DNA of 64,000 nt from a virus: positions 1-64,000 of the IMG/VR virus record IMGVR_UViG_3300028196_000007; one strand, written 5' to 3'. Every line of letters begins with the position of its first letter. Within the stretch, counting starts at the first letter, position 1. A model generated the notes under the pieces. It worked only from the letters and a program-made list of their open reading frames with translations, did no database searches and was not told the DNA's origin. Both the position numbers and the translations under genes were made by a program. Below, in pieces: positions 3,336 to 25,258 of this stretch.

Positions 3336-3580
3336 TAGTTTACTCTTACTTTAAGTTTTTTTATTTCAGTTAAAAATTCTTCCACTGTCAATGTCTTTCC
3401 TTTTTCGGTTTTTATTTTTATATCTGGTAATACCTCAGGTGTTTTGTCCACAATCGACATTAAAACTTTTAATCCAGAACCTGCCCAGAATACTCCAAAT
3501 CCTGTATTTTCACCTAAAAGATTAGAATCGAAATAAACTTCTTTCTCTGTATCACCTGGCATCATTATAAAATATGTCAT
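3335..3580 (-). CDS. Conserved-type phage hypothetical protein, 81 aa
   Basis: Starts MTYFIMMPGDTEKEVYFDSN and ends with a Lys-rich helix. It resembles small uncharacterised proteins I associate with marine T4-like phages, but no function is known to me. It overlaps the sugar dehydrogenase-like gene by ATGA at its start and the 44-residue gene by TAATG at its end. Confidence 0.6.
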   Translation of the reverse strand: MTYFIMMPGDTEKEVYFDSNLLGENTGFGVFWAGSGLKVLMSIVDKTPEVLPDIKIKTEKGKTLTVEEFLTEIKKLKVRVN

Positions 3581-4299
3581 TTTTTATACTCCATAATTAA
3601 ATCCAGTGCTTTACTTTCAAACTGTTCCATAAGTAATTCTACATTAGGTATTACACAGTGACCTCCTATTCCGTCTTCTGGTGGATATAAATTAGGTCTT
3701 ACAACGTTCTGCATATCAAGCCCCATATAACCTATATTATATGAGAGCGTCCATTTGTTAATGACATCAAAATCTATACCATGTTTATCGCACATCTTTT
3801 TCATTTCACCATGCCAAGCTATACACAAGCCATAGTATGTTGTACTTGTTAACTTTGCTAACTCTGTAGCATCTGAGTTTTCAACAGGATAAAATGTTAT
3901 TTTTAAATCTTCATAATGCTCCTTTGCCAAAGCTAAATCAACTGGATTGTTATATCCTATAAACTTAACAAATTTTTCTATGCCTTCTTTTAGATTAGGA
4001 TGTATACCTCTTACAGGTGAATGTACACAAGGTCGAGATATTTCTTTTGTAGTACCAACAGGTACAGTTGAATGTATTATTGTTAATTTTGGTAAATACA
4101 GGTCGATATAACTATTGACTGTACTTATAAAGTTTTCGCCATAAGGCAGACATATATCTAAAATATCTATGTCTCCGTGTATTGTATTGAAGTTCAAGTC
4201 TCTAATCATAGGTACATGGCCTCTTTCTTGGTATACCTTTGCTAATGAGGAACCTATCTCACCAAAACCTATTATTGCTACCTTTGTTTTATATTCCAT
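3577..4299 (-). CDS. Nucleotide-sugar dehydrogenase-like protein
   Basis: A 240-residue NAD(P)-binding protein of the UDP-glucose/GDP-mannose dehydrogenase type. The Rossmann loop GFGEIG is at 11-16, a STVPVGTT segment typical of the family follows, and GIGGHCVIP near residues 210-218 resembles the catalytic Cys motif GGxCxP of UDP-sugar dehydrogenases. It is much shorter than the usual 380-450 residues, so the C-terminal domain is reduced or missing and activity is uncertain. It is last among the sugar genes, which suggests a role in making or sensing a sugar precursor. Confidence 0.65.
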   Translation of the reverse strand: MEYKTKVAIIGFGEIGSSLAKVYQERGHVPMIRDLNFNTIHGDIDILDICLPYGENFISTVNSYIDLYLPKLTIIHSTVPVGTTKEISRPCVHSPVRGIHPNLKEGIEKFVKFIGYNNPVDLALAKEHYEDLKITFYPVENSDATELAKLTSTTYYGLCIAWHGEMKKMCDKHGIDFDVINKWTLSYNIGYMGLDMQNVVRPNLYPPEDGIGGHCVIPNVELLMEQFESKALDLIMEYKK

Positions 4300-4338
4300 T
4301 TAATGTCTCCGTTGTTGAATATCCTTTTGTCCAGATTA

Positions 4339-5082
4339 TCATGTCGTAGTTACACCTCTTTCTTGTACAACTTTACTTGCGCATGAGTTTGCAAAGTCAA
4401 TAGCTTCTTCAATTATATTACCAGAATCTATATATTTGTAAACCAAACCTGCCATGAATGTATCTCCTGCACCTGATACATCTGATACCTTAACTTTATT
4501 TTTTACTTTAAAAATATTGTTTTTATACAATGCACCTTCTGAACCATCTGTTACTATAATATTATCATAAGTATAATCTTTGTTGTTATTCCACTCAGGA
4601 TTATTTATTTTAATAAAATCTATATTTTTACACCAATCACCTAATTTCTTCTTTGTATCTAAAAACGTAGGACACTTTGCTGTTTTACCTATATGAGCTA
4701 TATCATGAATTGTAAGAAAACCTTTATTATAGTCTGATATTACTATTGCATCATAACCTAAATCAAAATCTGAGTCTATACATTTTTGCCATTCTTTATT
4801 AAAGTCAATCGGCATGCAGGTGTCGTTTTCATCTAATCTCATAATCATCTGGCCAGATTTATCATCTACATATCTGGTCTTTTTAATAAAATCATCATTA
4901 GTTATCAAATCAACTTCTGCACCTAATGATTCTAAATTTGCAACTACATTTCCTGCCATTCCAGGATTTTCTGTTTTATTAACAGGATTAAGTACTGGTA
5001 CTGGCGCTTCAGGACAGAGTCTGCTTATATCGCAATAAACAAATTTATCAATACAACTATCACCTATAACTAAAACTCTCAT
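4339..5082 (-). CDS. PfkB-family sugar kinase, HldE kinase-domain-like
   Basis: A ribokinase-fold kinase of 247 residues. The start VLVIGDSCIDKF, then ISRLCPEAPVPVL and PGMAGNVVANLESLGA, closely follow the first domain of HldE (RfaE), which phosphorylates heptose 7-phosphate for ADP-heptose synthesis. The PfkB signature DVSGAGDTFMAG at 201-212 supplies the anion hole and catalytic Asp (GAGD, 204-207). It lacks the second HldE domain (nucleotidyltransferase). Together with the HldD-like epimerase and GT9 proteins in the same operon it implies heptose handling. It overlaps the upstream cupin by ATGA. Confidence 0.8.
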   Translation of the reverse strand: MRVLVIGDSCIDKFVYCDISRLCPEAPVPVLNPVNKTENPGMAGNVVANLESLGAEVDLITNDDFIKKTRYVDDKSGQMIMRLDENDTCMPIDFNKEWQKCIDSDFDLGYDAIVISDYNKGFLTIHDIAHIGKTAKCPTFLDTKKKLGDWCKNIDFIKINNPEWNNNKDYTYDNIIVTDGSEGALYKNNIFKVKNKVKVSDVSGAGDTFMAGLVYKYIDSGNIIEEAIDFANSCASKVVQERGVTTT

Positions 5083-5441
5083 TGACTATCTCCTTTTTTA
5101 ATTCTATAACTATCAAGGTCAAAATGTTGAGTTGAGACTTCAAATATTTCTGAATTATCCTCCAATGCAACAAGCTGGTGAGGCTGGCCTCTTTCTATTG
5201 TAATACACGTACCAATTTCTATAATTGTAGAATGTTCTTCTGCAGTCTCTGTGTTAATCCATTTATATTCAAAACTTCCTCTTCCTACATACCAAGATTC
5301 TTTCTTGATTATGTGATAGTGCATTGAAAATTTATTTCCTTTTTTATTGAATCTTAAAAGCTTTCCGCAATATTCTTCATCGTTATGAATCCAGATTTCT
5401 TGTCCCCAAGCCTTGTCTACTGTTTTAGGTTTTACTATCAT
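5079..5441 (-). CDS. Cupin protein, mannose-6-phosphate isomerase-like
   Basis: A 120-residue single-domain cupin. MHYH at about 40-43 with a downstream Glu (KKESWYVGRGSFEY) and RGQPHQL near 85-91 give the His/Glu metal ligands of the two cupin motifs. The family includes type II phosphomannose isomerases and small sugar isomerases. In this operon a role in sugar-phosphate isomerisation is plausible but not proven. Both ends overlap neighbours by ATGA. Confidence 0.75.
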   Translation of the reverse strand: MIVKPKTVDKAWGQEIWIHNDEEYCGKLLRFNKKGNKFSMHYHIIKKESWYVGRGSFEYKWINTETAEEHSTIIEIGTCITIERGQPHQLVALEDNSEIFEVSTQHFDLDSYRIKKGDSQ

Positions 5442-6217
5442 AATAAAATTTCCATTTTCTGTATTACATCCTTAGCAGATGGATTCCAGTTATTATCTAC
5501 AATATATTCTACGTCAGTATTGTGAGGGTTCCAGTCCGTACTGTATCTGTTGATATTTTTTACCTCACCCCAAGCAACTTGATTTAAACCACATAAAGAT
5601 GCCAAATGCATTGGTCCTGAAGATGGCCCTATTATTAGTTTAGAACTAGCCATATAATCACATAATTCTTTTAACTCTATGCCTCTTAAGTCCTCTGTGT
5701 CTTTTATATGGTGTGCTGCAGATTTAAGACCTATACTAGCAAATTTATAACCGCTAAAACTTTTTACTATCTCATCGAACTTAATAGTATCCCAATTTCG
5801 TACTTGAGTACCTGCCTTGTTTGTATTTCTTGCATGTATAAGAATATAATTTTCGTATTTATTTTTGCCATATTTTATAAAGCTCTGCTCTAATTTAGGC
5901 CTCCAAATAGGCTCTCCCTGTGTTGGAGTATAGTGAGTGACACAATGATTTGGTGGAATATATTCACTGCCTTTTTCAGGTTTAGGATATTCTGTTATTG
6001 GCGTTCTATTAAAATATGAATCAGGTTGATAATCACTAGGCTCATAAGGAATATATTCATCACAAAAATCTTCATACAAGAATTTGTTAATACCTCTACC
6101 TGATATAATAACTTTATCGAACTTCTTGACTTCAGCATATCGTCTTAAAACTCCTTGCCAGCAAAATAATTCCCATCCAAACTCTCCAACCCAAGGTCCT
6201 GCAAATAATGTTTTCAT
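5438..6217 (-). CDS. Glycosyltransferase family 9-like (heptosyltransferase-like)
   Basis: A 259-residue protein with a GT-B-type C-terminal half: the segment LIIGPSSGPMHLASLCG near 196-212 is the GT9 heptosyltransferase donor-site motif (GxDTGxxHLAAA-like). The N-terminus FAGPWVGEFGWELFCWQGVLR is seen in phage and bacterial sugar-transfer proteins. It is shorter than a standard heptosyltransferase (about 320-350). It probably transfers a heptose or similar sugar to an unknown acceptor. Confidence 0.7.
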   Translation of the reverse strand: MKTLFAGPWVGEFGWELFCWQGVLRRYAEVKKFDKVIISGRGINKFLYEDFCDEYIPYEPSDYQPDSYFNRTPITEYPKPEKGSEYIPPNHCVTHYTPTQGEPIWRPKLEQSFIKYGKNKYENYILIHARNTNKAGTQVRNWDTIKFDEIVKSFSGYKFASIGLKSAAHHIKDTEDLRGIELKELCDYMASSKLIIGPSSGPMHLASLCGLNQVAWGEVKNINRYSTDWNPHNTDVEYIVDNNWNPSAKDVIQKMEILL

Positions 6218-6237
6218 ATCTTTAATATAACAAATTT

Positions 6238-7020
6238 TTATGAATTAAGTAAATAATTTCGGTACTTTTTTGTTCCTAACTGCACATTGTTTTTTGGTTC
6301 CCAGCCTGGCATAAACTTTTCTCTATCAGCTTGTGTAAAGTATTGGTACCATCCAGGTATCTTATCTGGTGTGTGGTATTCATAATCTACACCTATGCCT
6401 CCGACAAGACTTTCAAATGTTTCTGCATTTCCTGAGCCCACATCGAACAAGCCTCTTTCAAGAGTTGCAGCGTGCATATTAGCATCTATTATGTCTTCAA
6501 TATATACAAAGTCTCTTTTTATATCACCTGGGAATAATTTGAACTCTCCTGCTTTCCAAGCTTGATATGCAACTGATGCCATTTTGCCTTTGTGTTCTTC
6601 ACCTGGCCCATATACGTTAAAATACCTTAACGCAACAAATCTTTCACATGCTTTCAATCCATAGTCTTCTGCAAGTAGTTTTGACCAACCATAAATATTG
6701 TTAGGTATACCATCGCCATCGCCATAATTTGCAGCTGAACTTGAATATACAACCTTGACATTATATTTTCTTGCCAAATCAAATATTCTTTTACTCAATG
6801 TGTAATTATAGTAAAGCATTTCATTGGCATCCTGTAATGTTGTATCAGATATTGCACCTACATGAAATATCACGTCGCATTGTTTTATTATAGATTCTAG
6901 ATTATACTCTTCAAAGTTTCCATCTCTTTCTAGACAATAAGCATAGTGCCCTAACTGTTTTAATTTTTTTAATAAATTAGAACCTACAAATCCTTTATGT
7001 CCTGTTAGTAATACTTTCAT
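6238..7020 (-). CDS. NAD-dependent sugar epimerase, HldD-like
   Basis: Short-chain dehydrogenase/epimerase of 260 residues. The NAD-binding GHKGFVG is at 7-13, SSSAANYG at 93-100 and the catalytic YGWSK at 110-114. The run GAISDTTLQDANEML followed by YNYTLSKRIFD is close to HldD (RfaD), the ADP-glycero-manno-heptose 6-epimerase. With the HldE-like kinase downstream this gives two of the steps of ADP-heptose formation. A TTATATTA-like string lies in the 20-nt gap after this gene. Galactose-type epimerase remains the alternative. Confidence 0.8.
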   Translation of the reverse strand: MKVLLTGHKGFVGSNLLKKLKQLGHYAYCLERDGNFEEYNLESIIKQCDVIFHVGAISDTTLQDANEMLYYNYTLSKRIFDLARKYNVKVVYSSSAANYGDGDGIPNNIYGWSKLLAEDYGLKACERFVALRYFNVYGPGEEHKGKMASVAYQAWKAGEFKLFPGDIKRDFVYIEDIIDANMHAATLERGLFDVGSGNAETFESLVGGIGVDYEYHTPDKIPGWYQYFTQADREKFMPGWEPKNNVQLGTKKYRNYLLNS

Positions 7021-7784
7021 TATATACTCTCCAAATCATATACAACATTTTCATTTACGCTGTGTAAGGGTTTTACTCTTTCCCAAATATCTCTACCTCT
7101 TCCAAAATATACAAAATCTACATCTTTATCTATTGCATGACACGCGTGATAAAAAACCGAGTCAGGTATACACACAGCCTTTGCACGTCTCATTATCTCA
7201 AATTGAACATTTATATTATATTCCAAATAATCTATTTCAACTCCTATTTCAATAAAGTGCTTGATATTTTTATTTTTATCTAGCCATTTTCTACCAAAAT
7301 ATATAGGCAAGTCTTTTGAAGGTACACCAGTGTTTGTCTGTATAAAACCAAAATCGTTGTAGCCTACAATATCTTTAATTATATTTTCTGCCTGTATTAC
7401 GTCTTCATGATTTGTGTGTATTTCTGTAAGTGGATTTTTCAAATCTATATTTAGATACTTTGAATTTAGCAATATCTTGCTTTCATTTATAGAGTGCATT
7501 GGCATACACATAAAATTATATCCGTTTTCTATTGCAAACTGTTTCCACTGTTTTTGTAGTGATTGAAAGCCAATATTAGAATTGTCAAAGTCATGCCAAG
7601 CATCTTTACAATAATATATTTTGTCCACGTCAGGATTATTATCAAAAAACTTTGCAGACTTAAACCTTTCAAGTGTAACTACTGATATATGATTACCTGT
7701 TTGTTTTTTATATTCTCTTAATGCAGGTGTAAGTAATACGCAATCACCTAAACCGTGGGGGTATAATATTAAATTCTTTTTCAT
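7020..7784 (-). CDS. Glycosyltransferase family 9-like (heptosyltransferase-like)
   Basis: A 254-residue protein beginning NLILYPHGLGDCVLLTPALR, the N-terminal acceptor-site motif of GT9 (GDxxLxTPxLR). RAKAVCIPDSVFYHACHA near 205-222 corresponds to the donor-site motif. It is therefore a second heptosyltransferase-type enzyme in the operon. It overlaps both neighbours by a few bases. The acceptor could be host lipopolysaccharide core or a phage component. Confidence 0.75.
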   Translation of the reverse strand: MKKNLILYPHGLGDCVLLTPALREYKKQTGNHISVVTLERFKSAKFFDNNPDVDKIYYCKDAWHDFDNSNIGFQSLQKQWKQFAIENGYNFMCMPMHSINESKILLNSKYLNIDLKNPLTEIHTNHEDVIQAENIIKDIVGYNDFGFIQTNTGVPSKDLPIYFGRKWLDKNKNIKHFIEIGVEIDYLEYNINVQFEIMRRAKAVCIPDSVFYHACHAIDKDVDFVYFGRGRDIWERVKPLHSVNENVVYDLESI

Positions 7785-8359
7785 ATTTTATCTATAATTA
7801 TTAAATAGTCAGCCTGACCCATCTGAATATCTCGTTCTTTTGTCAGAATTTTCACTATTTTAGTTTTGTGATTTGTAAAGTTTCTGAATTCATTTATATC
7901 TGTATACTTGCCAGGAACTTCTGTATCATCCCACCAATTAGCGTGTCCCATAGGTGGTGGTGATGGTTCATCATAAGAATGTTTCCAGGGCACTGTTATT
8001 ATCAATCTTTTGTTTGTTAATAGCATTAAATTATCAAAAGCTTTTTTATATTCTACCAAATGTTCTAAAGTTTCAGAGCATATAACAACATCAGCCGATT
8101 TAATTGGAAATGTTGATAAGTCGAATATATCCGAATTGTAATAATCTATTATGTCTTTAAAACTCTCCATTTCTTTTATGAATTTTTTATTGTCGTCAAA
8201 TCCAAAATAATCTGTTGAATAAACCTTAAAGCCTAAATGATTTAGATGAGCATCAGGCTTGCAATGTCCTGAACCAACATTGAGTATTGTTTTAGGTTCT
8301 AATTCTATAGCCTCTTTTATTATTCGCTCGTGCCTAATATCTATTATTGGTAACTTCAT
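7781..8359 (-). CDS. Class I SAM-dependent methyltransferase
   Basis: 192 residues with a Rossmann methyltransferase fold: LNVGSGHCKPDAHL near 26-39 is motif I, SADVVICSETLEHLVEY near 87-103 contains the Asp/Glu-rich motif IV seen in methyltransferase type 11 proteins, followed by LIITVPW. It probably methylates a sugar made by neighbouring enzymes. The gene overlaps the upstream glycosyltransferase by 26 nt. Confidence 0.75.
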   Translation of the reverse strand: MKLPIIDIRHERIIKEAIELEPKTILNVGSGHCKPDAHLNHLGFKVYSTDYFGFDDNKKFIKEMESFKDIIDYYNSDIFDLSTFPIKSADVVICSETLEHLVEYKKAFDNLMLLTNKRLIITVPWKHSYDEPSPPPMGHANWWDDTEVPGKYTDINEFRNFTNHKTKIVKILTKERDIQMGQADYLIIIDKI

Positions 8360-9152
8360 TTGCCCACTTCATTCTTGTTAATTTTTTTACATTTTTCATA
8401 CCGCTTTTAGATATTTTATTTCTTAAATCTTCATTATTAAGATAATAAATAATCTTTTCTTGCAAGTCTGAAATATCTTTATATACAACCAAGTCCTCTC
8501 CATCTACAAGGCCAGTTAATTCTCTACCATACCATTCGTCTGTCAGCAGAAACCCTCCTGCTGCAAGTATTTTATATACTCTATCGGATGCACAACTATC
8601 TGTACATATATTCAGATTTATCCTTGATTTTCCTACCTCTATTGAATGCTGCAAACCATAGGCTGATGAAATTATCTTAACGTCATTTAAGCGTCCTAAC
8701 ACAGTGCTTCTATTACCATACACATTACCAATAAATGAAATATCGTATTCTTTTTTTACATTTTGCACAAAATCAACAGATTCATCGTATCCTTCACAAA
8801 TATACCTGCCTAGCTTTGCTTTTTCAAGAGAACTCTTTTTGTCAAAAAATGCTATGTCGCTTAGCATTGCTTTTTCTGCCATTTCCATAGTAAATGTTGT
8901 TGCAGGGTCTGGAAACCAATATACAATTTTTTTATTATTGTGTTTTAGCTTGCCCATTGTATATTTACTTGTTCCATTTCCTTTAGCTATAAGTACAATA
9001 TCATACCCTGTTTTTTCTTGTAAAACAATATTGAAGTTGCTTATAGATCTGTATGGGAATTCTTCTACGTCATGCCCAAGATTTCTTAAACAATCTCTTT
9101 GAGAATTATTTGTTGAGCCTTCAGTAAAAACTCCTACAAATAATATTCTCAT
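8334..9152 (-). CDS. Glycosyltransferase, CgeB/YkvP-like GT-B
   Basis: A 272-residue protein with a glycosyl transferase group 1 (CgeB-like) layout: an N-terminal half with a YWFPDPATT segment and a C-terminal half with RINLNICTDSCASDRVYKIL and GGFLLTDEW, where a conserved Arg and a Glu-like acidic position bind the nucleotide-sugar phosphate. The final LNNEDLRNKISKSGMKNV helix is typical. Acceptor unknown. Tightly coupled to the genes on both sides. Confidence 0.75.
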   Translation of the reverse strand: MRILFVGVFTEGSTNNSQRDCLRNLGHDVEEFPYRSISNFNIVLQEKTGYDIVLIAKGNGTSKYTMGKLKHNNKKIVYWFPDPATTFTMEMAEKAMLSDIAFFDKKSSLEKAKLGRYICEGYDESVDFVQNVKKEYDISFIGNVYGNRSTVLGRLNDVKIISSAYGLQHSIEVGKSRINLNICTDSCASDRVYKILAAGGFLLTDEWYGRELTGLVDGEDLVVYKDISDLQEKIIYYLNNEDLRNKISKSGMKNVKKLTRMKWANEVTNNRY

Positions 9153-9973
9153 ATCTGGCCTTCAATAATTTCAAGTGATGAATGAACTTTTTTCTCTAAA
9201 AAGTCTATAAGCTCAATTCCTTTGTATTTGTCAAACCAATCTTCATATGTACATCCAACTCTATTATCTGTCTTTACTTTCAGACCTAGCATTCTAGCTT
9301 CTACAACTAGCCTGCAGCATGTTTCTACTGCGTGTGAGAAAAATACCAAACCTTCGTATTCTGACATCGTCTCCATTAACTCTTTCCATTGACAGTTTTT
9401 AAGATAGTCATAATCTATTTTTTGTATTTCACAAAGCTGTATTCCTTTATTACTTCTTTTACCTGGTACAACACACCACTTGCCATTTTTAGATTCTTTA
9501 TACATTTTTCTTATATAGTCAAACTGCTCTTGTGAAAATTGCGTACAGCCAAGAGATTCGACGTTTGTTAAGTCAATATGTTTTAGTAATAAATCTGCAG
9601 AGTGATTTGTTAGACAGAAAACCTTTTGAGCACCTCGATAAAATGTTTGGTTAACAACTTCAGACTCTGGTGCAGCAAAATCTTTATACATTGCAGTGTT
9701 TCTAGACCTAACATATTTTTGGTCGCGTTCAATAATAATATAATTTACCCCTGATGAAAAGAACCAGTTCTTATTTACCCCTGATAAACCAACAAAGTTA
9801 GAAATGATAAAAGTATCAGCCTTATGTATGGTCGGGTCAAACTTTTCACTTTTGACAGTTTTTATATTATGTCCTTCTTTAGCCAAATAATCGATTAAAA
9901 CTCCATCGGAAATTTCAGCCCCTCCTAGTACCTCAGCTTCAAAGAAGTCTGAAATGTATATTAAATTCTTCAT
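9149..9973 (-). CDS. Glycosyltransferase-like protein
   Basis: 274 residues with a GT4-type start (YISDFFEAEVLGGAEISDG), a central VFCLTNHSADLLL segment and KWCVVPGKRSNKGIQL, resembling the donor half of GT-B enzymes. No strongly diagnostic catalytic motif is visible, so the assignment rests on overall pattern and operon context. Confidence 0.55.
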   Translation of the reverse strand: MKNLIYISDFFEAEVLGGAEISDGVLIDYLAKEGHNIKTVKSEKFDPTIHKADTFIISNFVGLSGVNKNWFFSSGVNYIIIERDQKYVRSRNTAMYKDFAAPESEVVNQTFYRGAQKVFCLTNHSADLLLKHIDLTNVESLGCTQFSQEQFDYIRKMYKESKNGKWCVVPGKRSNKGIQLCEIQKIDYDYLKNCQWKELMETMSEYEGLVFFSHAVETCCRLVVEARMLGLKVKTDNRVGCTYEDWFDKYKGIELIDFLEKKVHSSLEIIEGQI

Positions 9974-9975
9974 AT

Positions 9976-10428
9976 CTATTTACTCATTAAAACGTCATCA
10001 TCGAACTGATAGTCTATAAGCTGTAATAAGCCCATTTTCTGTAAAAACAATGTTCTGTAACTATTATTATAAAACCTGGCTAAGTCTTGTTTCAGTGTTC
10101 TAATATAAAATCTGTTCGAAGACTCTTCCATTATAAGCTTAGGTATATCCAAAGCTCTTCTTTTGTATTTTGGTATCATACGAATACCAGTATCTCTTGC
10201 AACATTATTGAATACAATAGTACTAATCTCATTTAGATTGAGTACATGAACCATATTTCTAAATCCTGGATTTAGTATCAAGAACATATATTGCTTTTTC
10301 TCACCTTGTCTATTTTCATAAAGATTAGAGACTACCATCCCTTTTTGCAAATCATTTTTTGGTATAATTAACCTTGATTGCATTTTCATCAAGTGCATGT
10401 TATAATAATTTGTAGAAGGTCTTTTCAT
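9976..10428 (-). CDS. Hypothetical protein, 150 aa
   Basis: Not recognised. Basic, mixed alpha/beta protein with a central LILNPGFRNMVHVLNL segment and a C-terminal helix-rich part. It lies inside the glycosyltransferase cluster yet shows no enzyme motif. It overlaps the upstream 161-residue gene by one base (TAATG). Confidence 0.6.
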   Translation of the reverse strand: MKRPSTNYYNMHLMKMQSRLIIPKNDLQKGMVVSNLYENRQGEKKQYMFLILNPGFRNMVHVLNLNEISTIVFNNVARDTGIRMIPKYKRRALDIPKLIMEESSNRFYIRTLKQDLARFYNNSYRTLFLQKMGLLQLIDYQFDDDVLMSK

Positions 10429-10913
10429 TATATATCGCCTAAAGCAAAGCCTTTAACTTTTTTACAAGCTTCTAAATAACTTATAAAGTATTCAGCTTCT
10501 TCCATGTTTACTTTAGATTCATAAGTGTCAGTTACAAGTCTAGACTTTTCTTCAACTGTAAGTGGCTGTATTGGTGCGTAACACCATTTTATTAGTTCGT
10601 CACCTACGCTTTCTCCATCCTTTACAGCTTGAACTTTACCTACAGGGAAAACCATTGCTGTTGCTGTTTCTATTGTTGCTGGGTACCAATATGATTCTCC
10701 ATCATCGTACCTTAAGTCTTTTAATAAATCTGGCATCCCTTCTTCAAATTTTTTCATATCAAAATCTGGATGCTTTTTATAATTTAAAGGATATTCATTA
10801 GTATAATATCCTGTACTTAAATCCATTTTAGATGCTCCATTTTTTTCATCAAATTCTTGAAGGACCATATTTTTTCCTGTTATCGGGCTTTTGCCCCAAT
10901 TTTCTTTATTCAT
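10428..10913 (-). CDS. Hypothetical protein, 161 aa
   Basis: Not recognised. It starts MNKENWGKSPITGKNM, is acidic and contains WYPATIETATAMVFPVGK and WCYAPIQPLT. Beta-rich first half and helical last third. Sits between glycosyltransferase genes with short overlaps, so it may serve the same pathway or a virion role. Confidence 0.6.
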   Translation of the reverse strand: MNKENWGKSPITGKNMVLQEFDEKNGASKMDLSTGYYTNEYPLNYKKHPDFDMKKFEEGMPDLLKDLRYDDGESYWYPATIETATAMVFPVGKVQAVKDGESVGDELIKWCYAPIQPLTVEEKSRLVTDTYESKVNMEEAEYFISYLEACKKVKGFALGDI

Positions 10914-12186
10914 AAGTCTGTAACTCCTCTAATTTAGGTATTTCAACATCAAAGCTTGGTAAGTATTTTTCAAGTATCTCACCAAATTTAACAGTCATGG
11001 TATTAAGTGAAAAATTATCTTTCATGTGTTTTGTTTGTTTTCTAGATTTTTCTAAGTATTTTTTATAATTTTTATGCAAGTCCTTAAGGATGCTTGAAGC
11101 AAATCCATAGTTTACATAAAACCATTGTGAATCCTTCATGATAACATTTTCCCATTCAACTGACTTGTGTATTTGCTTCATCTCGCCTTGAAGTAGTATA
11201 CCATATTCATTTAAAAAGTCAACATGACCTGACCACCCAGGTGCTATAGTTGGTTTTCCTGTGATTGAAAATTCAGCAAGAGGTCTGCCATATCCTTCAC
11301 CATGCGTAAAGCTAAGCATCGCTTTAATCTTAGGGTGATTGTATAAAGAATTCATTTCATTATCTGCTAAGTCTCCCCAAACAATATAAATACTAGGAAG
11401 TTTTTTGCCTTCAGATTTAAAGCCAGATTTGATATTATTTATCTTGCTTTTTAACTGAACTTCTTCAGGTACAGAAAAAGCTATTCCTGTCTTTATTACC
11501 AAAGCAGGTTGGTTTCTTTCTGCAAGTGGTGAAAAAGTACTTAAGAATGTGTGTATTGTACCACCTATATCTTTTCTATCGTGTAGAAAGTCACCGTTCA
11601 TCCAATGTCCACATAGAAGGAAGCAGAAGTCTTCTTTTATACCGCTCATAGTTTCAGAAACAGTTTTTTCAATATCACTTGTTTTATTATATACATTAGT
11701 GTCAACTCCTTCGAACAACACTTCTAATGGCTTCACTGAACTTAATGTTTCAACTGCTTGTTTTGTTCTTGAGTCCATTTTGTCATATGTACATGTAAAC
11801 CCTCTAGCTGAATGCTGTGAAGGTACGATGTTCATGTCCATTCTATTCATTCCTTCTATCCATGTAGGTGAAACCCTGTCAGTTTCAATTCCTGCAGTTA
11901 TTCCAATATTGTATTTACCTACAGGCTGAAACTCATTTGGAACTGTTACTTGAATCCAAATATCAGGTTGTTCTTTCATGTCGCCTTGTAATGCAAGCTT
12001 TGCCAAATCAGAATTCTCTTCTCTATTCAGCTCTGTTCTAGGACAGTTTCCCCATCTCTGGTCAATAATATTTATGTCAAATTTATTCAAATCAATTAAA
12101 CTTCTTATTAAGTCTCTTGAGTGATTTCCGTAACCACTTCTGCTTGATGCAGGACAGCTAATTACTATTTTTGGTTTGTTATTCAT
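10906..12186 (-). CDS. Glycosyltransferase, GT-B fold
   Basis: A 426-residue protein. SRSGYGNHSRDLIRSL near 16-31 is the N-terminal GT4-like loop; NIVPSQHSARGF and the C-terminal LSFTHGEGYGRPLAEFSITG carry the HGEGYGRP(L)xE donor-binding motif, where the Glu contacts the nucleotide sugar. GHVDF follows. This is a retaining GT4-type layout common in phage sugar clusters. The acceptor may be a virion protein, modified DNA or host glycan. Confidence 0.8.
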   Translation of the reverse strand: MNNKPKIVISCPASSRSGYGNHSRDLIRSLIDLNKFDINIIDQRWGNCPRTELNREENSDLAKLALQGDMKEQPDIWIQVTVPNEFQPVGKYNIGITAGIETDRVSPTWIEGMNRMDMNIVPSQHSARGFTCTYDKMDSRTKQAVETLSSVKPLEVLFEGVDTNVYNKTSDIEKTVSETMSGIKEDFCFLLCGHWMNGDFLHDRKDIGGTIHTFLSTFSPLAERNQPALVIKTGIAFSVPEEVQLKSKINNIKSGFKSEGKKLPSIYIVWGDLADNEMNSLYNHPKIKAMLSFTHGEGYGRPLAEFSITGKPTIAPGWSGHVDFLNEYGILLQGEMKQIHKSVEWENVIMKDSQWFYVNYGFASSILKDLHKNYKKYLEKSRKQTKHMKDNFSLNTMTVKFGEILEKYLPSFDVEIPKLEELQTYE

Positions 12187-13601
12187 TATGATAATACTCC
12201 TGTTGGATAAGTAGGTTCTTCTTCGTTCATATCTATTAGTTTAAATCTTTTTAGCGGCTTCCATGTGTTGAATAGACTTTCGAAAGAATTTATAACAGCG
12301 TTACACATACCTTCTCTATTGAATCCGTTTTCTATTGCCCAAGCTCTACCTTCTTTTCCGCATAATTCTCTTTTTTCTTTCTCCATATCATACCAGTATT
12401 TTAGTCCTTTTTCAATATCGCATATTGTAGGTCTGCTATCATATATATATGGTGTCACCGGCGAACCCTGAATACTTTGATTTGGCCAAAGAGGGTATGT
12501 CCACTTTCCATAATCTTTAGATATTAAACCTGTACTGTTACTAGGCTTATCTTCTGTAAAGTGTTTTACAGACAGCTCTTCGCCGTCAACCTTAAAGCCC
12601 ATCTGGTCCTGCAGACCACCAAGTACGGTTGCTATAGTAGGTGTTCCAGACATAAGAGATTCCATATGAGATAATCCAAAACCTTCTGCTGAAGATGGAT
12701 TACAAGTGACATCTGCTATATTATATAACACGTTTAGCTGAGTGTGTGGTAATTTAGAAGTACTAAATATTAAATTCATTTTAGGGTATAATCTATTTGC
12801 CACTTCTTGAAGATGAGTACCGTGTTCATCTACAACATCAGTGTGCATTATTAAAAACGCCTTGCTTCTATCTTCTTCACTAAGCTTAGAAGAAAACTGG
12901 CCAAATGCCTGTATTAAATCAGAACAGCCTTTTCTTCTAATATTTCTACTGTTATAAAAAGCAACGAATTCAGGTTCAACGTCTCCAAACAGATTTGTTG
13001 ATGTTCCAATAAGCTCAGGTGACATATCATCTAAAGGGAAGTATTTCTTGTCATCAATTCCATGCTGCACATAGTGTAAATCTTGCCCTTCTACTCTTGG
13101 TTTTCTTTGGCACACATGCTTGTTTATATTGTATGTCTGTTTAGATATACCCATAAGCAAGTCGCATGATTCGTAGAAAGGTTCATTCCAATGAGGGAAT
13201 GGAAGGTCATCCCATATATTATAGTATGCTATTGGCGTATGCTCTCTTAATTCATGACACATATCATATAGCCATCCCCAGAACCTAGGGTCTGTAAAGT
13301 GCATGATAGCGTCTGGTTTTTCTAAAGATATAACATCTCTTAATACATCTGGATTACCATATCCAGAAAATGGTAGTATCTTTATATAACCATCAGTTAC
13401 GCCGCCTGACTCTTGAATTGTTTCAGGTGCTTGTGATAAGTCTACAAATCCTTTTCCTTCGTCAGGGTGTTTGATAGCACCACCAATTTGTACCCAATCA
13501 TATTTGTGCAATGTTCCCATTACAATTTCTCTTGACATTGTACCTACACCGGAATGTAGCCTCATGTCATCTCCTAATAATAGTATCTTCTTTTTTGCCA
13601 T
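12186..13601 (-). CDS. Glycosyltransferase family 4
   Basis: A 471-residue GT-B enzyme. GDDMRLHSGVGTMSREIV at 10-27 is the nucleotide-sugar enzyme N-terminal loop, FYNSRNIRRKGCSDLIQAFGQ starts the donor domain, and NPSSAEGFGLSHMESLMSG holds the classic EGFGLxxxE motif with catalytic/phosphate-binding Glu. Start and stop overlap neighbours. It is the first sugar gene of the operon in the direction of transcription. Confidence 0.85.
   Translation of the reverse strand: MAKKKILLLGDDMRLHSGVGTMSREIVMGTLHKYDWVQIGGAIKHPDEGKGFVDLSQAPETIQESGGVTDGYIKILPFSGYGNPDVLRDVISLEKPDAIMHFTDPRFWGWLYDMCHELREHTPIAYYNIWDDLPFPHWNEPFYESCDLLMGISKQTYNINKHVCQRKPRVEGQDLHYVQHGIDDKKYFPLDDMSPELIGTSTNLFGDVEPEFVAFYNSRNIRRKGCSDLIQAFGQFSSKLSEEDRSKAFLIMHTDVVDEHGTHLQEVANRLYPKMNLIFSTSKLPHTQLNVLYNIADVTCNPSSAEGFGLSHMESLMSGTPTIATVLGGLQDQMGFKVDGEELSVKHFTEDKPSNSTGLISKDYGKWTYPLWPNQSIQGSPVTPYIYDSRPTICDIEKGLKYWYDMEKEKRELCGKEGRAWAIENGFNREGMCNAVINSFESLFNTWKPLKRFKLIDMNEEEPTYPTGVLS

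Positions 13602-15633: not shown

Positions 15634-15634
<1 letters not shown>
15374..15634 (-). CDS. Small zinc-ribbon-like protein, 86 aa
   Basis: CEKCECQTF at about 32-40 and KCTDCGHINEGFL near 67-79 give two CxxC knuckles spaced as in a zinc ribbon. A disordered Gln/Asn-rich N-terminus precedes them. Its start overlaps the groEL stop by one base. Function unknown; metal binding is inferred from the Cys pairs. Confidence 0.6.
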
Positions 15635-17540
<1,906 letters not shown>

Positions 17541-17551
<11 letters not shown>

Positions 17552-19123: not shown

Positions 19124-22100
19124 TTATATCAACTTTTTTATCGAAGAGTTTTTGCTTTTTGTGAAACCAAATTTGTTTTTTGATGAAGGTATTAAAACAA
19201 ACTCACCTTCGTTAAGACCTGATATATCTCTAGTATTAAATATGGTTATAAACAACTGTTTGACGTCATCTTCTAACACAATTTTATAAAATTCCCTACC
19301 TGTCTTTTTAGATTTTTTAATAATTATTTTGTTTATAATACCATATAGTTGGAACTGACCTTTATCCAAGTCATCAGGTATTTGCTTAGGACTTGTTAAC
19401 TGTGCAATAATATCAGGTGCGTGGTCGTAGAAAAACTCCTTATATTTTGCAAAAGGGTGTTCGTTAAAATAAAAATCAAAGTATTTCTTTTCCCATTCAA
19501 ACTTTTGTGTTTTGTCCCAGTCTTTTTCACCTGTAGTTTCCTGTAAGATTTCTTGAATTATTGCATCGATTGTCTGCGACTTCTTTTTGTTTCTACAGGC
19601 ATTTACTATTTCCTCTAACACTCTAGAGTTTTTAAGTATAGAGTTAAAATAACCTAGTCTACAAAGAGGTTCGTATGTACGCTTTGTAACTTTTTTACTA
19701 AGTATAAATTCTATAAGTTCTTTAATTGTATTGATATCACTTTTTTTGATAGAGTTTATAAGTGCAGCATCTTTATCTGGTATACCTTTTACAAGGTTTA
19801 ATCCAAATTTTATAGAATCATTTTCATAGTCTATTTCAAAACTATTACCTGTCTGTCCTATTTCGAAGTCATTAAACTTTATACCTTTACTTTTTATCTG
19901 TTTAACAAACCAGCTTAACTCTGCATTTGTTGAATGGTTAAGAAGCGAAGCGTAATACTCTTTTGGAAAATGTACCTTTTGCCACATTGATATATAAGCG
20001 TTCATAGCATATGCTAGCGAGTGAGACTTATTAAATGAGTATTCTGAATATTTACCTAGTACGTCTAGTAACTCATCTATATCTCTATCCTTCATGCCAT
20101 TTGCTTTTGCGCCTTTTTTGAATCTATCAAGCATATCATAGAAATTACCTTTCTTTTCTTGATTACCTTTATGTAGTAATTTAAGAATTTTTCTACCACC
20201 ATCTGCTTCAGCAAGTGTAAAGCCACCAATTTTTTGTAGAATAAACATAATCTGCTCTTGAAATATTGGAACACCAAATGATTCTCCTAATATATCCCAC
20301 AGCAGTGGTGATTTTTCGTCTAGCAAAAATTTTGCCTCTTCCGGATTTTGTCGGTTTTTGATATACTCGTCAATTCCTCCGGCCTGAATTATTGCAGGTC
20401 TAAACATGGCATTGATGGATGATAAGTCAACAATGTTTTTAGGTTTTATTGTCCTAATTAAATTTATCATATTATCAGAGCCAAATTGAAATATGTCTTT
20501 ACAGTTACCTGTTTCGAACTCATCATAAACCATTTTGTCATCGAAGTCAGATTTTAGAATTCGTTGTTCTAAACCTTTTTCTCCATGCTTGCTTTCTATA
20601 AGTTTGAATGTATCATTTATTACTGATGCTGCTTTAAGACCAAGAATATCTAGCTTACAATAACCAAGTTCACTAACCTCTCGTTCATCACCACCTTCTT
20701 GTACACCAGTTACTGTTTCGCCTTTTAATCTTAACAAAGGTATTTCTGAACAGTCTAAATCTTTATTACTTACTAATATACCTGAAGCGTGTCTACCTGT
20801 TTGTCTTACCATACCTACCATTTTAGGTGCAACTTTCAAGAACAGTTCTTTGTTGTCCTTTATAAACGCCATTAAGTCTTTTTCACCTTTTTTCTGTGCA
20901 ATGCTAAAAGCGTTTTTCATTTCTATATCTATAGGTGAGTTTGGGTCATCGCTAAAATATCCTGTAAGTTTGTTTGATAATACAAAGTCAAGTTCATGTA
21001 TTCTACATAAATCCTTTACAGTTGTTTTAGCACCAAATTTTCCAAAGTTTGCAATGTGACATACACGTTCAGTACCAAACTTTTCTTTAAGATAACCTTC
21101 GCACAACTTTTGTGTATCGGAATCAATGTCCAAATCCACATCGGCAGGGTCAATTCTAGCAGGGTTTAAGAACCTTTCAAAAATTAAATTATGTCTTATC
21201 GGATCGATTTTTGTAATATCTAGTACAAATAGTACAAGTGAACCACCAGCAGAACCTCTACCAGCACCAGTTGCACCACCTACTTTGTATACAAAATTAT
21301 TTAATAAGTCATCTAGAATTAAAAAATAATCGATAAATCCTTTGTCTTTTATAATGTCTAATTCGTATTTAAGTCTGTCTGTATATCGTTTGTCGTTTTC
21401 AGGTAGTAAGCCATTACCTATTTTTTCAACCCATTTAACTTTTAGCTTATCCATAAATTCAGTTTCACTTTGCTTTTTGTCTTCATGATACTTAGGGAAG
21501 TTGTCAGGATATTTTGGCAATTCAATATTTACCTTGTCGTTTATTTCAAAAGTAGAATCTATTGCAAGTTCAAGAAAGTTTTTATCCATTCCATATTTTT
21601 CTGCTTCAGCATATATTTCATCTATCTCTTTAATATAAAGTGAGTGTACTGTATAAAACCAATCATCTGGAGTGTAAGACTGTACAGTTTCTCTTTGACG
21701 TATTACATATAAAAGATATTGAATGTACCAATCATCTTTATTTGCATAGTGATAATCAAGAGAGAACACAGGCTTTATTCCTGTTTTCTGATATACTTTA
21801 TGATAGAAATTATTACATTGCATTTGTATATCTAGATTGTTTAGCTGTATCTCCAAATAAAAATCATCACCAAACTTATCTCTATATTTTTTTATAAGTT
21901 CTAATGCTGCAACTTCATTTCCTGCAAGTATATATTGATTCCATTTTGATTGTAAACAACCTGTTGTAATTATATTATTCTCATCTAGTGTATTGTATAC
22001 TTTATCCATACTTGAAAGAGGCTTTCTATAAAACGTATCGAAACTTGCATTAGATACTTTTAATATATTCTTTACACCTTCATAGTTTTTTGAATAAACT

Positions 22101-22477
22101 AAAGTGTGATTGTTTGCAGCAGCAGTCTTATCAAGGTGTTCACCAGCATCACCAATTACATCTGTAGAACCTTTTTTAAGTTCAAGGAACTTTTCATTAT
22201 CTGAGTGGTATAAGTCATTTGTATATAGTTCACAACCTACGATTGGATTTATATTACTTTCCTTTGCATGTTTATAAAACTTGTAGAAAGACGACATATT
22301 TCCATGTTCGGTTAGTGATATACCAGGTGCACCAACCTCTTTTGCACGCGTCATTATATCTTCAATTTTTGTTACGCCATCCCCTTGTGAGTAAGTAGAA
22401 TGGCCATGCAAAGGAACGTAATTTGTAAATTTATTTCCTGTTTTGTATTTTAGTTTTAAGTCACACTTTTGACACAT
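19124..22477 (-). CDS. dnaE: DNA polymerase III alpha subunit (family C, DnaE-type)
   Basis: A 1117-residue replicative polymerase. The PHP domain starts with PLHGHSTYSQGDG (H24, H26) and TEHGNMSSFYKF; GTGAGRGSAGG-like GATGAGRGSAGGSLVLF opens the palm, and PADVDLDID near 440-452 carries the catalytic aspartates. The fingers (GRKILKLLHKGNQEKK, YSEYSFNKSHSLAYA) and tandem HhH region follow, with a C-terminal OB-fold near 1020-1110. Near-complete DnaE length and intact palm suggest an active enzyme. T4-type phages usually use a family B polymerase (gp43), so this is a replacement of the core replicase. A weak promoter of the TTATATTA class lies upstream. Confidence 0.95.
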   Translation of the reverse strand: MCQKCDLKLKYKTGNKFTNYVPLHGHSTYSQGDGVTKIEDIMTRAKEVGAPGISLTEHGNMSSFYKFYKHAKESNINPIVGCELYTNDLYHSDNEKFLELKKGSTDVIGDAGEHLDKTAAANNHTLVYSKNYEGVKNILKVSNASFDTFYRKPLSSMDKVYNTLDENNIITTGCLQSKWNQYILAGNEVAALELIKKYRDKFGDDFYLEIQLNNLDIQMQCNNFYHKVYQKTGIKPVFSLDYHYANKDDWYIQYLLYVIRQRETVQSYTPDDWFYTVHSLYIKEIDEIYAEAEKYGMDKNFLELAIDSTFEINDKVNIELPKYPDNFPKYHEDKKQSETEFMDKLKVKWVEKIGNGLLPENDKRYTDRLKYELDIIKDKGFIDYFLILDDLLNNFVYKVGGATGAGRGSAGGSLVLFVLDITKIDPIRHNLIFERFLNPARIDPADVDLDIDSDTQKLCEGYLKEKFGTERVCHIANFGKFGAKTTVKDLCRIHELDFVLSNKLTGYFSDDPNSPIDIEMKNAFSIAQKKGEKDLMAFIKDNKELFLKVAPKMVGMVRQTGRHASGILVSNKDLDCSEIPLLRLKGETVTGVQEGGDEREVSELGYCKLDILGLKAASVINDTFKLIESKHGEKGLEQRILKSDFDDKMVYDEFETGNCKDIFQFGSDNMINLIRTIKPKNIVDLSSINAMFRPAIIQAGGIDEYIKNRQNPEEAKFLLDEKSPLLWDILGESFGVPIFQEQIMFILQKIGGFTLAEADGGRKILKLLHKGNQEKKGNFYDMLDRFKKGAKANGMKDRDIDELLDVLGKYSEYSFNKSHSLAYAMNAYISMWQKVHFPKEYYASLLNHSTNAELSWFVKQIKSKGIKFNDFEIGQTGNSFEIDYENDSIKFGLNLVKGIPDKDAALINSIKKSDINTIKELIEFILSKKVTKRTYEPLCRLGYFNSILKNSRVLEEIVNACRNKKKSQTIDAIIQEILQETTGEKDWDKTQKFEWEKKYFDFYFNEHPFAKYKEFFYDHAPDIIAQLTSPKQIPDDLDKGQFQLYGIINKIIIKKSKKTGREFYKIVLEDDVKQLFITIFNTRDISGLNEGEFVLIPSSKNKFGFTKSKNSSIKKLI

Positions 22478-22561: not shown

Positions 22562-23053
22562 TTAACAATAAGTCCACGGCTTATTTCCATTCTCCATAAA
22601 CCTATGAAGAGATGTTATCTTAACATATATTTTTCCAGGCCTATATTTTGGCCAACAAGCTATAAGTGCAGACATAACCATCATATAAGTCTGGTTGTCA
22701 TAGCAGAAATTGTTATCGAAGTTTTGACTTCTTACAAAAACATGCAGGTCTATCTTTCCATCTCTTGCTATTGCCTGTATTGTAGAAAGACATGCTGCTA
22801 AATCTGGATTATCTTGATAAGCTTTATGAAGTACACACTGTCTAGACTCTATGCCTTTTGTTTCGCATATCTGAAGTATGTCTTCTATAATCTCGTTTCT
22901 TTCAATCTCATCGCCTTCTAAAGCAGGAGGTATTTTTTTATCCATAAAGTCTGAATCGACCTCTACCTCGTAATTAAAATTGTATACTTCTCTATACGTG
23001 CCACTGTCTTGTTTGCTTAACAGGCTTTCTATTTTCTGTGCTATTTTCTTCAT
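22562..23053 (-). CDS. ThyA-like (thymidylate synthase/hydroxymethylase family) short protein
   Basis: A 163-residue protein covering the C-terminal half of the ThyA fold. SRQCVLHKAYQDNPDLAACL matches the ThyA region leading to the catalytic Cys (AAC for PC), then STIQAIARDGKIDLHVFVR and SQNFDNNFCYDNQTYMMVM follow the Q...RSxD...N pattern, ending KITSLHRFMEN like the dUMP-binding H-x-Y loop. The N-terminal 80-100 residues of ThyA are missing. It could be a dUMP/dCMP hydroxymethylase relative or an inactive remnant. It overlaps the upstream epimerase by 62 nt, so a downstream start is possible. Confidence 0.6.
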   Translation of the reverse strand: MKKIAQKIESLLSKQDSGTYREVYNFNYEVEVDSDFMDKKIPPALEGDEIERNEIIEDILQICETKGIESRQCVLHKAYQDNPDLAACLSTIQAIARDGKIDLHVFVRSQNFDNNFCYDNQTYMMVMSALIACWPKYRPGKIYVKITSLHRFMENGNKPWTYC

Positions 23054-24056
23054 AATGCTTTGCTATCGATAAATATGTTTTTGTTATACCTTCTGCTGAA
23101 TTCATTGCATTTGCAGACAGATTGTAATGTTGATATAATTTATAAAAGTTTTCTGATTTCCCATTGTGTCTTGCAAGATAGTCACCTTCTGGAATTAAAT
23201 TTATGTGTTCTGTTAAATCGTTGCATTGTGTAATTTCTTGAATAAGGTATAAGTAATTTTCAAATGGCATTGGCTTATCTTTACTTATAATAAAGTCTTT
23301 ACCCCAACCATTATCCATCATAAGTATAGTCAAAAACATATCAGCGAAATATTCATATCTCATATAGTCTTTTTCTATTGAAGGGTCAAGTAATACATCA
23401 AGTTTGCCATTTTTGTTAAGTGGAGACAATGTATAAGGTATGTTGTTCTTACTACAATATACTTTTTCTGTTATCTTTCTTATCATAGACGAGTTATCGA
23501 ATGGTGCGTCACCATAAATAAACACAGGCTTTATTACCATCATTTTTTCGAAGTCCATAGCCTGTTTTACAGCAAGCTCACCTGAATACTTTGAAAGACC
23601 ATATAGTGTTTTTGGGTCTATAGGTGCTGTTTCATTAAACTCTCCATTGTTCTTCATGTATTCATCAGGATTGAATACGGCTGTAGTAGAAAAGTATATC
23701 ATTTTACAACCAACACTGCTTGCTATGTTAATAAGATTTTGAGTACTTATAATATTTGAGTTAACAGCTTCGTATGAAAAGTCATCGCACTTATCTGTAT
23801 TCACATAAGCAGCAGTGTGAATTATAATATCGTCTTCAGTAAGTCTTGATGCTACCTTGTCTAGTACATCAGTATCTGTAACATCTACCTCTTTTGATTT
23901 CACAAGCTTTCCGTTTAAATAACTAAAGTCATTTGTATATTCTGCTAAATCAGAATTGTCCATTACCTCAAATCTTTCTGTCCCGCTTTCTTCCAACGCT
24001 TTAATTATAGAGGTTGCTAGCATTCCACTTTCACCTGTTATAAATAATTTTCTCAT
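22992..24056 (-). CDS. NAD-dependent epimerase/dehydratase family protein
   Basis: 354 residues. GESGMLATSI near 8-17 is a modified glycine-rich NAD loop, IIHTAAYVNTDKCDD is typical of dTDP-4-dehydrorhamnose reductase-like and NAD epimerase proteins, and FSTTAVFNPD ... LYGLSKYSGE gives the Ser and YxxxK catalytic residues. It lies among nucleotide genes rather than in the sugar operon. A reductase or epimerase acting on a nucleotide sugar is likely; the substrate cannot be read from sequence. Confidence 0.8.
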   Translation of the reverse strand: MRKLFITGESGMLATSIIKALEESGTERFEVMDNSDLAEYTNDFSYLNGKLVKSKEVDVTDTDVLDKVASRLTEDDIIIHTAAYVNTDKCDDFSYEAVNSNIISTQNLINIASSVGCKMIYFSTTAVFNPDEYMKNNGEFNETAPIDPKTLYGLSKYSGELAVKQAMDFEKMMVIKPVFIYGDAPFDNSSMIRKITEKVYCSKNNIPYTLSPLNKNGKLDVLLDPSIEKDYMRYEYFADMFLTILMMDNGWGKDFIISKDKPMPFENYLYLIQEITQCNDLTEHINLIPEGDYLARHNGKSENFYKLYQHYNLSANAMNSAEGITKTYLSIAKHYEENSTENRKPVKQTRQWHV

Positions 24057-24843: not shown

Positions 24844-25258
24844 TTAACTCATCAACTTCTTTAAATTCAAAATTAGGCACAGGCATGATAATAATCTGAC
24901 CTACTCTATCACCTGGTGAATATCTTGAAATGTCTGTTGAACAACCTGATTTTTTAAATCTTAACTTTACAGGGCCTCTGTAACCTGAGTCAACTACTCC
25001 GACACAGTTTGCTAGCATTAGATCTGTTTTTGATACAGAGCTTCGCGGGAATAGATAACCTACATATCCTTCAGGTATTTCCATAGCCAAGCCTGTATCG
25101 TATTCGATATACTTAACTTCTTTTGATGTATAACCTTCTTTATCGTCACTATATTTTATCTTCATTGACACTGATGTTAAATCCATACCTGCATCGCCTT
25201 GCTTTGCATATTTTGGTATTACCGCTGTTGGGTCTAATTTTTTTATATTAATCTTCAT
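24797..25258 (-). CDS. dut: dUTPase (deoxyuridine 5'-triphosphate nucleotidohydrolase)
   Basis: Trimeric dUTPase of 153 residues with all five motifs: GDAGMDL, PRSSVSK, GVVDSGYRGPVKL, GDRVGQIIIMPV and the C-terminal RGDGGFGSTG arm that closes over the active site. It hydrolyses dUTP to dUMP and pyrophosphate, keeping uracil out of phage DNA and supplying dUMP for thymidylate-type reactions. An insertion of charged residues lies between motifs 1 and 2. Overlaps the MazG-HAD gene by 11 nt. Confidence 0.97.
   Translation of the reverse strand: MKINIKKLDPTAVIPKYAKQGDAGMDLTSVSMKIKYSDDKEGYTSKEVKYIEYDTGLAMEIPEGYVGYLFPRSSVSKTDLMLANCVGVVDSGYRGPVKLRFKKSGCSTDISRYSPGDRVGQIIIMPVPNFEFKEVDELSDTSRGDGGFGSTGS

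Follow-up and report, generated by a model that had tools for sequence, protein, structure and literature searches.

A cupin as a candidate sedoheptulose-7-phosphate isomerase in a viral heptose-type sugar operon

Introduction

In bacteria, ADP-heptose is made by a pathway of GmhA, HldE (or HldA together with HldC), GmhB and HldD, of which GmhA is described as the first step common to bacterial heptose pathways and as an enzyme studied as a drug target (PMC11056994). Heptose genes in phages are not new: cyanophages carry an equivalent set, a genome announcement labels such phage genes as heptose-related lipopolysaccharide (LPS) synthesis (PMC7378029), and rfaE along with glycosyltransferases is noted in an account of pelagimyophages (PMC7029224). 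Here we describe a sugar operon in a 64,000-nucleotide stretch of viral DNA, positions 1 to 64,000 of IMG/VR record IMGVR_UViG_3300028196_000007 (a linear virus record of 86,139 bases), which as a whole is called the window below, and in particular a small cupin encoded at 5079-5441. The novel element is the role proposed for this cupin and not the presence of heptose genes in a phage.

The phage cassette resembles the bacterial pathway in having HldA-, HldC- and HldD-type enzymes, as judged by family models; however, it is without GmhA and has the cupin instead, and its HAD protein falls well short of GmhB in size and shows no more than a distant likeness to capsule phosphatases. We think it likely that synthesis and transfer of an activated heptose are the task of the operon, and that the cupin is a sedoheptulose-7-phosphate isomerase unrelated to GmhA. 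This proposal draws on the gene content, the family matches, the linkage of the cassette in viruses and the occurrence of the cupin in the place of GmhA in bacterial heptose operons, all of which were observed. A literature search, with subscription papers mostly outside its coverage, found no paper assigning the reaction of GmhA to a cupin.

Results

In phages the cupin is linked to heptose-type genes

When a collection of annotated phages was searched, the kinase and the cupin of the window each matched 35 records, mainly cyanophages, although a few of the kinase matches were bacterial or unrelated. In P-SSM2, S-SM2 and S-SSM7 the set consists of a nucleotidyltransferase, the kinase, a small HAD protein (labelled 'phosphoheptose isomerase'), the cupin (labelled 'putative nucleotidyltransferase') and the epimerase. 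The cyanophage sets (P-SSM2, S-SM2, S-SSM7, S-CAM1/3 and SynMITS9220M01) have these families in common with the window, at identities of 42-50% for the kinase, 43-48% for the cupin and about 31-33% for the epimerase; however, they possess the nucleotidyltransferase and the small HAD protein, whereas the window is without both and has glycosyltransferases of its own, and the public labels of their cupin and HAD protein differ from the roles that we propose.

Two scans of viral sequences, taking the best 80 of 574 and the best 80 of 590 relatives, gave 155 distinct contigs. Kinase and cupin were found together on 61 of these, accompanied by the nucleotidyltransferase in 50 cases, the HAD protein in 43 and the epimerase in 34. 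Where the cupin had a partner gene on the same locus, it lay no more than 60 bp from one in 62 of 71 cases, all 62 on the same strand, and 26 different arrangements were seen among the 52 contigs holding at least four cassette families. SIS_2 (PF13580), the family of GmhA, was detected in none of 49 viral records that hold the cupin and/or the kinase and that include fragments and cupin-only records; the same search was positive in 9 of 14 control genomes.

The 'phosphoheptose isomerase' of the cyanophages was considered as a real GmhA and rejected on account of its HAD motifs: the alignment of the cassette HAD proteins retains the DxDxT, TAR, K and DD motifs, and the NCBIfam matches, which are weak, are to HAD families. 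The P-SSM2 copy falls in PHROG 1238. At L005:12719-13400 (here and below, L numbers denote loci and G numbers genomes or records) the public and PHROG names of the HAD protein ('phosphoheptose isomerase') and of the cupin ('nucleotidyltransferase', 'cysteine dioxygenase') both misfit the sequences. Separately, we noted cupins that are fused at their C-terminus to a domain of about 235 residues, FkbM-type methyltransferase-like by eye (L038:7953-9023, L039:619-1689 and L044:5134-6243).

In some bacteria the cupin occupies the place of GmhA

Bacterial and archaeal genomes were scanned as well, and the cupin was located at 30 loci, several of which resemble phage contigs. At L180 the gene order is cupin, HldA (274.8 bits), GmhB (NF006506, 181 bits against a cut-off of 178) and an HldC-type nucleotidyltransferase that is cut by the contig end, and the genome concerned, a metagenome-assembled genome, gave no SIS_2 match. 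We counted cupins and SIS_2 (E<=1e-10) in the HldA-bearing members of two samples, 192 genomes of the phylum of L180 (HldA-type kinase at E<=1e-40) and 288 genomes of one class, with G265 and G286 common to both. An HldA-type kinase was present in 13 genomes of the first sample. Ten of these contained SIS_2, adjoining or fused to HldA in eight, and the remaining three (G074, G265 and G286) are the three with an HldA-linked cupin; G265 and G286 gave only weak SIS matches, in long open reading frames (ORFs) of glucosamine-synthase size. The second sample held 22 HldA genomes, eight with the cupin fused to the N-terminus of HldA, 13 with SIS_2 and no linked cupin, and one, G528, with neither. Three genomes with SIS_2 (G351, G403 and G496) have an unlinked cupin on another contig.

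Pooling the samples gave 33 distinct HldA genomes, of which nine have an HldA-linked cupin (eight of them without SIS_2 at the threshold used), 23 have SIS_2 without a linked cupin and one has neither (Fisher p 5.6e-6, with relatedness ignored). The nine linked cupins lie beside HldA in one genome and are fused to its N-terminus in eight, with GmhB and the nucleotidyltransferase adjacent in all nine. When the ORFs of the eight fusion loci were re-read, cupin and HldA shared one frame in every case, again with GmhB and the nucleotidyltransferase adjacent. In G209, a related genome, it is GmhA and HldA that are read in one frame, followed by GmhB and the nucleotidyltransferase. We conclude that the cupin occupies the place of GmhA, both by position and by fusion; the reaction proposed for the two proteins is the same and both stand beside or fused with HldA, but the SIS fold of GmhA is unrelated to that of the cupin.

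Two further observations were made. HldA frames with 9 to 23 in-frame TGA codons occur in G336, G361, G411, G439, G510, G541, G544 and G547, a pattern known from bacteria in which TGA encodes an amino acid; SIS_2 is present in these genomes and an HldA-linked cupin is not. Elsewhere, related cupins are located at the end of ORFs of about 510-550 residues that by eye are like NeuB-type sialic acid synthases (L262:4568-6118, in G171, and L225 and L227-L229).

Sequence and fold of the cupin

The cupin of the window scores 21.6 bits with PF07883, below the cut-off of 27.2, and is also below the cut-offs for PF01050 and PF07385; the L180 cupin is above the PF07385 cut-off over 30 of 222 positions only. 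SIS_2 was absent from the family scans of the cupins, and the cupin is not a member of the GmhA (SIS fold) family. Residues H41, H43, E48 and H88 are invariant in all 36 aligned cupins, as are K27, E101 and D110. The first four correspond to the typical three-His, one-Glu metal site of cupins and would bind a metal.

The model of the window cupin (mean predicted local distance difference test score, pLDDT, of 96.3) has a cupin fold. Among the close folds are the C-terminal domain of CapF, KdgF and D-lyxose isomerases, together with two phosphomannose isomerases from archaea that are about as long as the cupin. The single-domain cupin phosphomannose isomerases (7zvy, 7zvm) are alike in fold and size and the D-lyxose isomerases (7nzo, 2y0o) in fold, but identity to these proteins is 14-20% and other cupins fit the fold about equally. 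A profile of 13 cupins searched against solved structures matched D-lyxose isomerases over nearly the full length (2y0o, E 8.7e-7); quercetin dioxygenases and oxalate decarboxylases rank first by E-value in that search, over shorter stretches, and oxalate decarboxylases lead when the L180 cupin is searched alone. Fold alone was not decisive as to function, since many cupins score alike. A metal-assisted ketose-aldose isomerase is plausible.

Neither public label of the cupin fits. It falls in PHROG 7851, 'cysteine dioxygenase'; the site of cysteine dioxygenase consists of three His only, and the invariant Glu in HxHxxxxE argues against this name. No nucleotidyltransferase model matched the cupin. 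In a cupin tree, which is built from few columns, 19 KPWG-type cupins split from the rest (100/99), and the phage and HldA-fused cupins did not form one supported clade.

Heptose enzymes and glycosyltransferases of the operon

It can be seen in Table 1 that the operon runs from 13601 to 3335 on the minus strand, and that the kinase, epimerase, methyltransferase, cupin and glycosyltransferases lie where the initial annotation had placed them, as intact ORFs on a single strand, mostly overlapping or abutting. The best NCBIfam match of the kinase is TIGR02198 (HldE domain I / HldA) at 131.6 bits, below the curated cut-off of 345, and it passes the cut-off for PF00294, the PfkB fold signature, with 71.7 bits. 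Its best PDB match is the heptose kinase 4e84, and it retains the PEAPVPV and GAGDT motifs. For the epimerase the best NCBIfam match is TIGR02197 (HldD) at 187.2 bits, below the curated cut-off of 274.6, and the best PDB match is E. coli HldD (1eq2, E 1.3e-32), with 2x6t also among the best. Motifs YGxSK and HKGxMAS, which have a catalytic role in HldD, are retained in the alignment to 1eq2.

The annotation had also assigned two GT9 proteins to the operon, neither of which matches Pfam itself, and this was supported for one of them. Members of the 5438-6217 family were found at 24 viral loci, and PF01075 was matched by 10 of the 21 sequences aligned (E<=0.01), the window copy not being among them. 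The AlphaFold model of 5438-6217 (mean pLDDT 86.4) gave as its best Foldseek matches TibC with bound ADP-heptose, the GT9 protein 3tov, WaaC and WaaF (E 8.9e-7, template modelling score 0.5-0.63). It is shorter than TibC, WaaC and WaaF and only 10-15% identical to them; on the basis of the fold it is a probable heptosyltransferase. The second candidate, 7020-7784, could not be confirmed as a GT9 protein: it has two viral relatives, but neither Pfam, NCBIfam nor PHROGs contained a match to it, and its PDB matches were not meaningful.

The HldE-N and HldD models are the best for the kinase and epimerase, an HldE-C-type nucleotidyltransferase is found in two near relatives (see below), and one heptosyltransferase fold is present. 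Together these support the heptose-style chemistry originally suggested for the operon. The concern that kinase and epimerase might be specific to other sugars was not borne out, as heptose models and structures match them best and the motifs are retained.

An apparent in-frame deletion of the nucleotidyltransferase of the window phage

In the near relatives L009 and L265 an intact HldE-C-type nucleotidyltransferase (L009 copy: TIGR02199, 117.7 bits, cut-off 181.5) lies between the kinase and the dehydrogenase. Alignment of the window with L009 shows that 333 bp are missing in frame, leaving the first seven and last ten codons (4289-4342), with a short sequence match at the deletion junction. 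As read from the sequence, the nucleotidyltransferase of the window phage has been lost by an in-frame 333-bp deletion that is absent from the two relatives. The initial annotation had noticed neither this loss nor the remnant. Searches with our own profiles, run on the window and the remaining 22 kb separately, found no nucleotidyltransferase, cassette-type HAD protein, GmhA or GmhB; nor was the cassette HAD protein found in G030 (L009), G565 (L265) or G031 (L010), records which are fragments. With the nucleotidyltransferase deleted and no cassette-type phosphatase on the 86-kb record, both steps must in this phage be supplied by the host or be encoded in sequence that the record lacks, or else the pathway is no longer complete.

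The terminase of the record is closest to that of Microcystis phage Mel-JY01 (61%), followed by the Flavobacterium phages 'immuto' (54%). Those genomes are 160-190 kb, which suggests that roughly half of a T4-like genome is present in the record, and we infer a Bacteroidota host. A possible but doubtful reading is that the heptose branch of the window phage is in decay and yields no product by itself. The deletion with its remnant, the intact gene in both near relatives and the lack of a HAD protein on the record are in keeping with decay, but the genes for kinase, cupin and epimerase are undamaged and retain their motifs, about half of the genome is probably missing from the record, the host may supply steps, and mis-assembly at the junction is possible.

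Table 1. Features of the operon region of the window.
Feature	Position	Strand	Evidence
GT4-type glycosyltransferase, 471 aa	12186..13601	minus	PF00534 48.3 bits, passes cut-off; PHROG 2170 glycosyltransferase
Probable glycosyltransferase, 426 aa	10906..12186	minus	PHROG 2170 glycosyltransferase, 53.7 bits only; no Pfam match
ORF, 161 aa	10428..10913	minus	No match in Pfam or PHROGs
ORF, 150 aa	9976..10428	minus	No match in Pfam or PHROGs
ORF, 274 aa, glycosyltransferase-like by eye only	9149..9973	minus	No useful family match (Pfam, NCBIfam, PHROGs)
CgeB-like glycosyltransferase, 272 aa	8334..9152	minus	PF13524 56.3 bits, passes cut-off
S-adenosylmethionine-dependent methyltransferase, 192 aa	7781..8359	minus	PF08241 32.7 bits, passes cut-off
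First 'GT9' protein of the initial annotation, 254 aa, unconfirmed	7020..7784	minus	No family match
HldD-like ADP-heptose 6-epimerase, 260 aa	6238..7020	minus	TIGR02197 187.2 bits; PDB 1eq2, 2x6t
Divergent GT9, probable heptosyltransferase, 259 aa	5438..6217	minus	PF01075 matches of relatives; predicted fold
Cupin, 120 aa, putative sedoheptulose-7-phosphate isomerase in the role of GmhA	5079..5441	minus	Cassette linkage; bacterial position and fusions; conserved H41/H43/E48/H88; cupin fold
HldE-N-like heptose-7-phosphate kinase, 247 aa	4339..5082	minus	TIGR02198 131.6 bits; PDB 4e84
17-codon remnant of deleted HldE-C-type nucleotidyltransferase	4289..4342	minus	Alignment of window with L009
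Shortened nucleoside diphosphate (NDP)-sugar dehydrogenase, 240 aa	3577..4299	minus	PF00984 30.2 bits, passes; TIGR03026 55 bits, below cut-off
ORF, 81 aa	3335..3580	minus	No family match; 79% / 84% identical in L009 / L265

Other features of the window

Outside the operon, a second nucleotide-sugar epimerase-like protein (PHROG 540) is encoded at 22992-24056, and a 312-residue protein at 25248-26186 combines a MazG-type pyrophosphohydrolase half with a second half of HAD or polynucleotide-kinase type, to which PHROG 1238 (the 'phosphoheptose isomerase' label) gives a weak match. Within 15634-17551 and 19124-22477 we found a phage-borne GroEL (PF00118), a GroES-like ORF (by eye) and a 1117-residue ORF resembling, again by eye, the alpha subunit of bacterial DNA polymerase III.

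Discussion

Kinase, nucleotidyltransferase, HAD protein and epimerase between them cover every step except that of GmhA, leaving the cupin as the one gene without a step, and it is for this reason that we guessed it to be the isomerase. In the pathway that we propose, the cupin would isomerise sedoheptulose 7-phosphate, the HldE-N-like kinase would phosphorylate C1, the small HAD phosphatase of the relatives would strip the C7 phosphate, the HldE-C-like nucleotidyltransferase of the relatives would form the nucleotide sugar, the HldD-like enzyme would epimerise it, and the GT9-like protein 5438-6217 would transfer the heptose to a glycan or protein. We infer all of these catalytic activities from sequence, position and fold, and likewise the nucleotide and the acceptor. 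The cupin had been listed in the operon by the initial annotation, which did not place it in the sugar pathway itself, where it probably belongs. Transketolase-like genes were noted near the cassette at L004:9975-11183, L011:5927-7089, L013:5949-7087 and L017:3610-4742; transketolase can make sedoheptulose 7-phosphate, and these phage genes might therefore supply the substrate.

Several observations weigh against this assignment. In viruses, the cupin is alone on 33 of the 155 contigs (the kinase on 36). The cupin scan gave 29 records with the cupin alone at the locus, most of them short, and a kinase is present elsewhere on three; these are three of the four such records longer than 100 kb, two of them (G026 and G027) probably near duplicates, and the fourth, of 166 kb, has no kinase. 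Among the cellular loci, 15 of 30 show no kinase, nucleotidyltransferase or HAD protein among the displayed neighbours, some adjoin a gene that by eye is GDP-mannose dehydratase-like, and some SIS_2 match occurs in 18 of the 28 genomes searched. The cupin family is thus not confined to the heptose pathway and probably has further substrates. G370, one of the eight fusion genomes, also carries an unlinked SIS protein, and G528 has HldA with neither a linked cupin nor SIS_2. The eight cupin-HldA fusions may represent a single event, so that the independent lines of support are better put at three: the cassettes of phages, the operon at L180 and the lineage with the fusion. The close folds also take in dioxygenases, decarboxylases and storage proteins, so that fold does not single out isomerases. 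Finally, the kinase and epimerase of the window both score under the curated cut-offs.

An explanation that would not require the cupin to act on sedoheptulose 7-phosphate is that it is a small hexose-phosphate isomerase of the phosphomannose type, or another sugar isomerase, serving other surface sugars; it would then travel with the heptose genes only through shared glycan synthesis, and GmhA activity would come from the host. Consistent with this, models of mannose-6-phosphate isomerase and of D-lyxose isomerase match the cupin weakly, its fold is close to the two archaeal phosphomannose isomerases, and at half of the cellular loci it stands apart from heptose genes. We nevertheless consider it unlikely, given that the cupin stands in for GmhA both in gene order and in the fusions with HldA, and that in 62 of 71 viral cases a heptose enzyme is its immediate neighbour. 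A little less likely again is that the cupin acts at a later point, for example by epimerising or ketoisomerising the nucleotide-heptose, or that it binds a sugar and so regulates the kinase. Small cupins have such functions in other sugar pathways and the cupin can be fused to the kinase, but cupin and HldA-linked GmhA never occur together in the 33 HldA genomes, and in G209 it is GmhA that is fused at the same end of HldA. That the sugar is not a heptose, the kinase and epimerase having drifted to another substrate, is improbable: their scores below the cut-offs would fit, as would a kinase that falls about 68 residues short of the TIGR02198 model, but heptose enzymes are the best matches throughout with motifs retained, the relatives add an HldE-C nucleotidyltransferase, and a heptosyltransferase fold lies within the operon.

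As to what the heptose is for, the initial annotation had suggested remodelling of host LPS, exclusion of other phages, or decoration of virion or DNA, and any of these may apply. Cyanobacterial LPS is described as mostly without heptose (PMC4515613, PMC4390846), and that of Synechococcus WH8102, as far as described in PMC4515613, contains neither heptose nor 3-deoxy-D-manno-octulosonic acid (KDO). Three phages listed with WH8102 as host carry the kinase, and a normal heptose LPS core is therefore an unlikely target for the cyanophage relatives. The simplest idea would be a phage-specified sugar on the host surface or on the virion.

For the family as a whole, it seems to us on balance probable that this widespread cupin, misannotated in phages, represents a second and structurally unrelated class of sedoheptulose-7-phosphate isomerase, which completes a compact five-gene, five-step nucleotide-heptose cassette that many phages carry and which, in some bacteria, forms a single protein with the heptose kinase. 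If true, a second enzyme class would explain those bacteria and phages in which the heptose pathway seems incomplete, and the annotation of a common phage cassette would be corrected, with the PHROG 'phosphoheptose isomerase' being a HAD-type protein and the 'cysteine dioxygenase' the cupin. It would also mean that phages of cyanobacteria with heptose-free LPS import a sugar foreign to their host, and the question why phages should carry heptose genes when their cyanobacterial hosts are free of heptose becomes directly testable.

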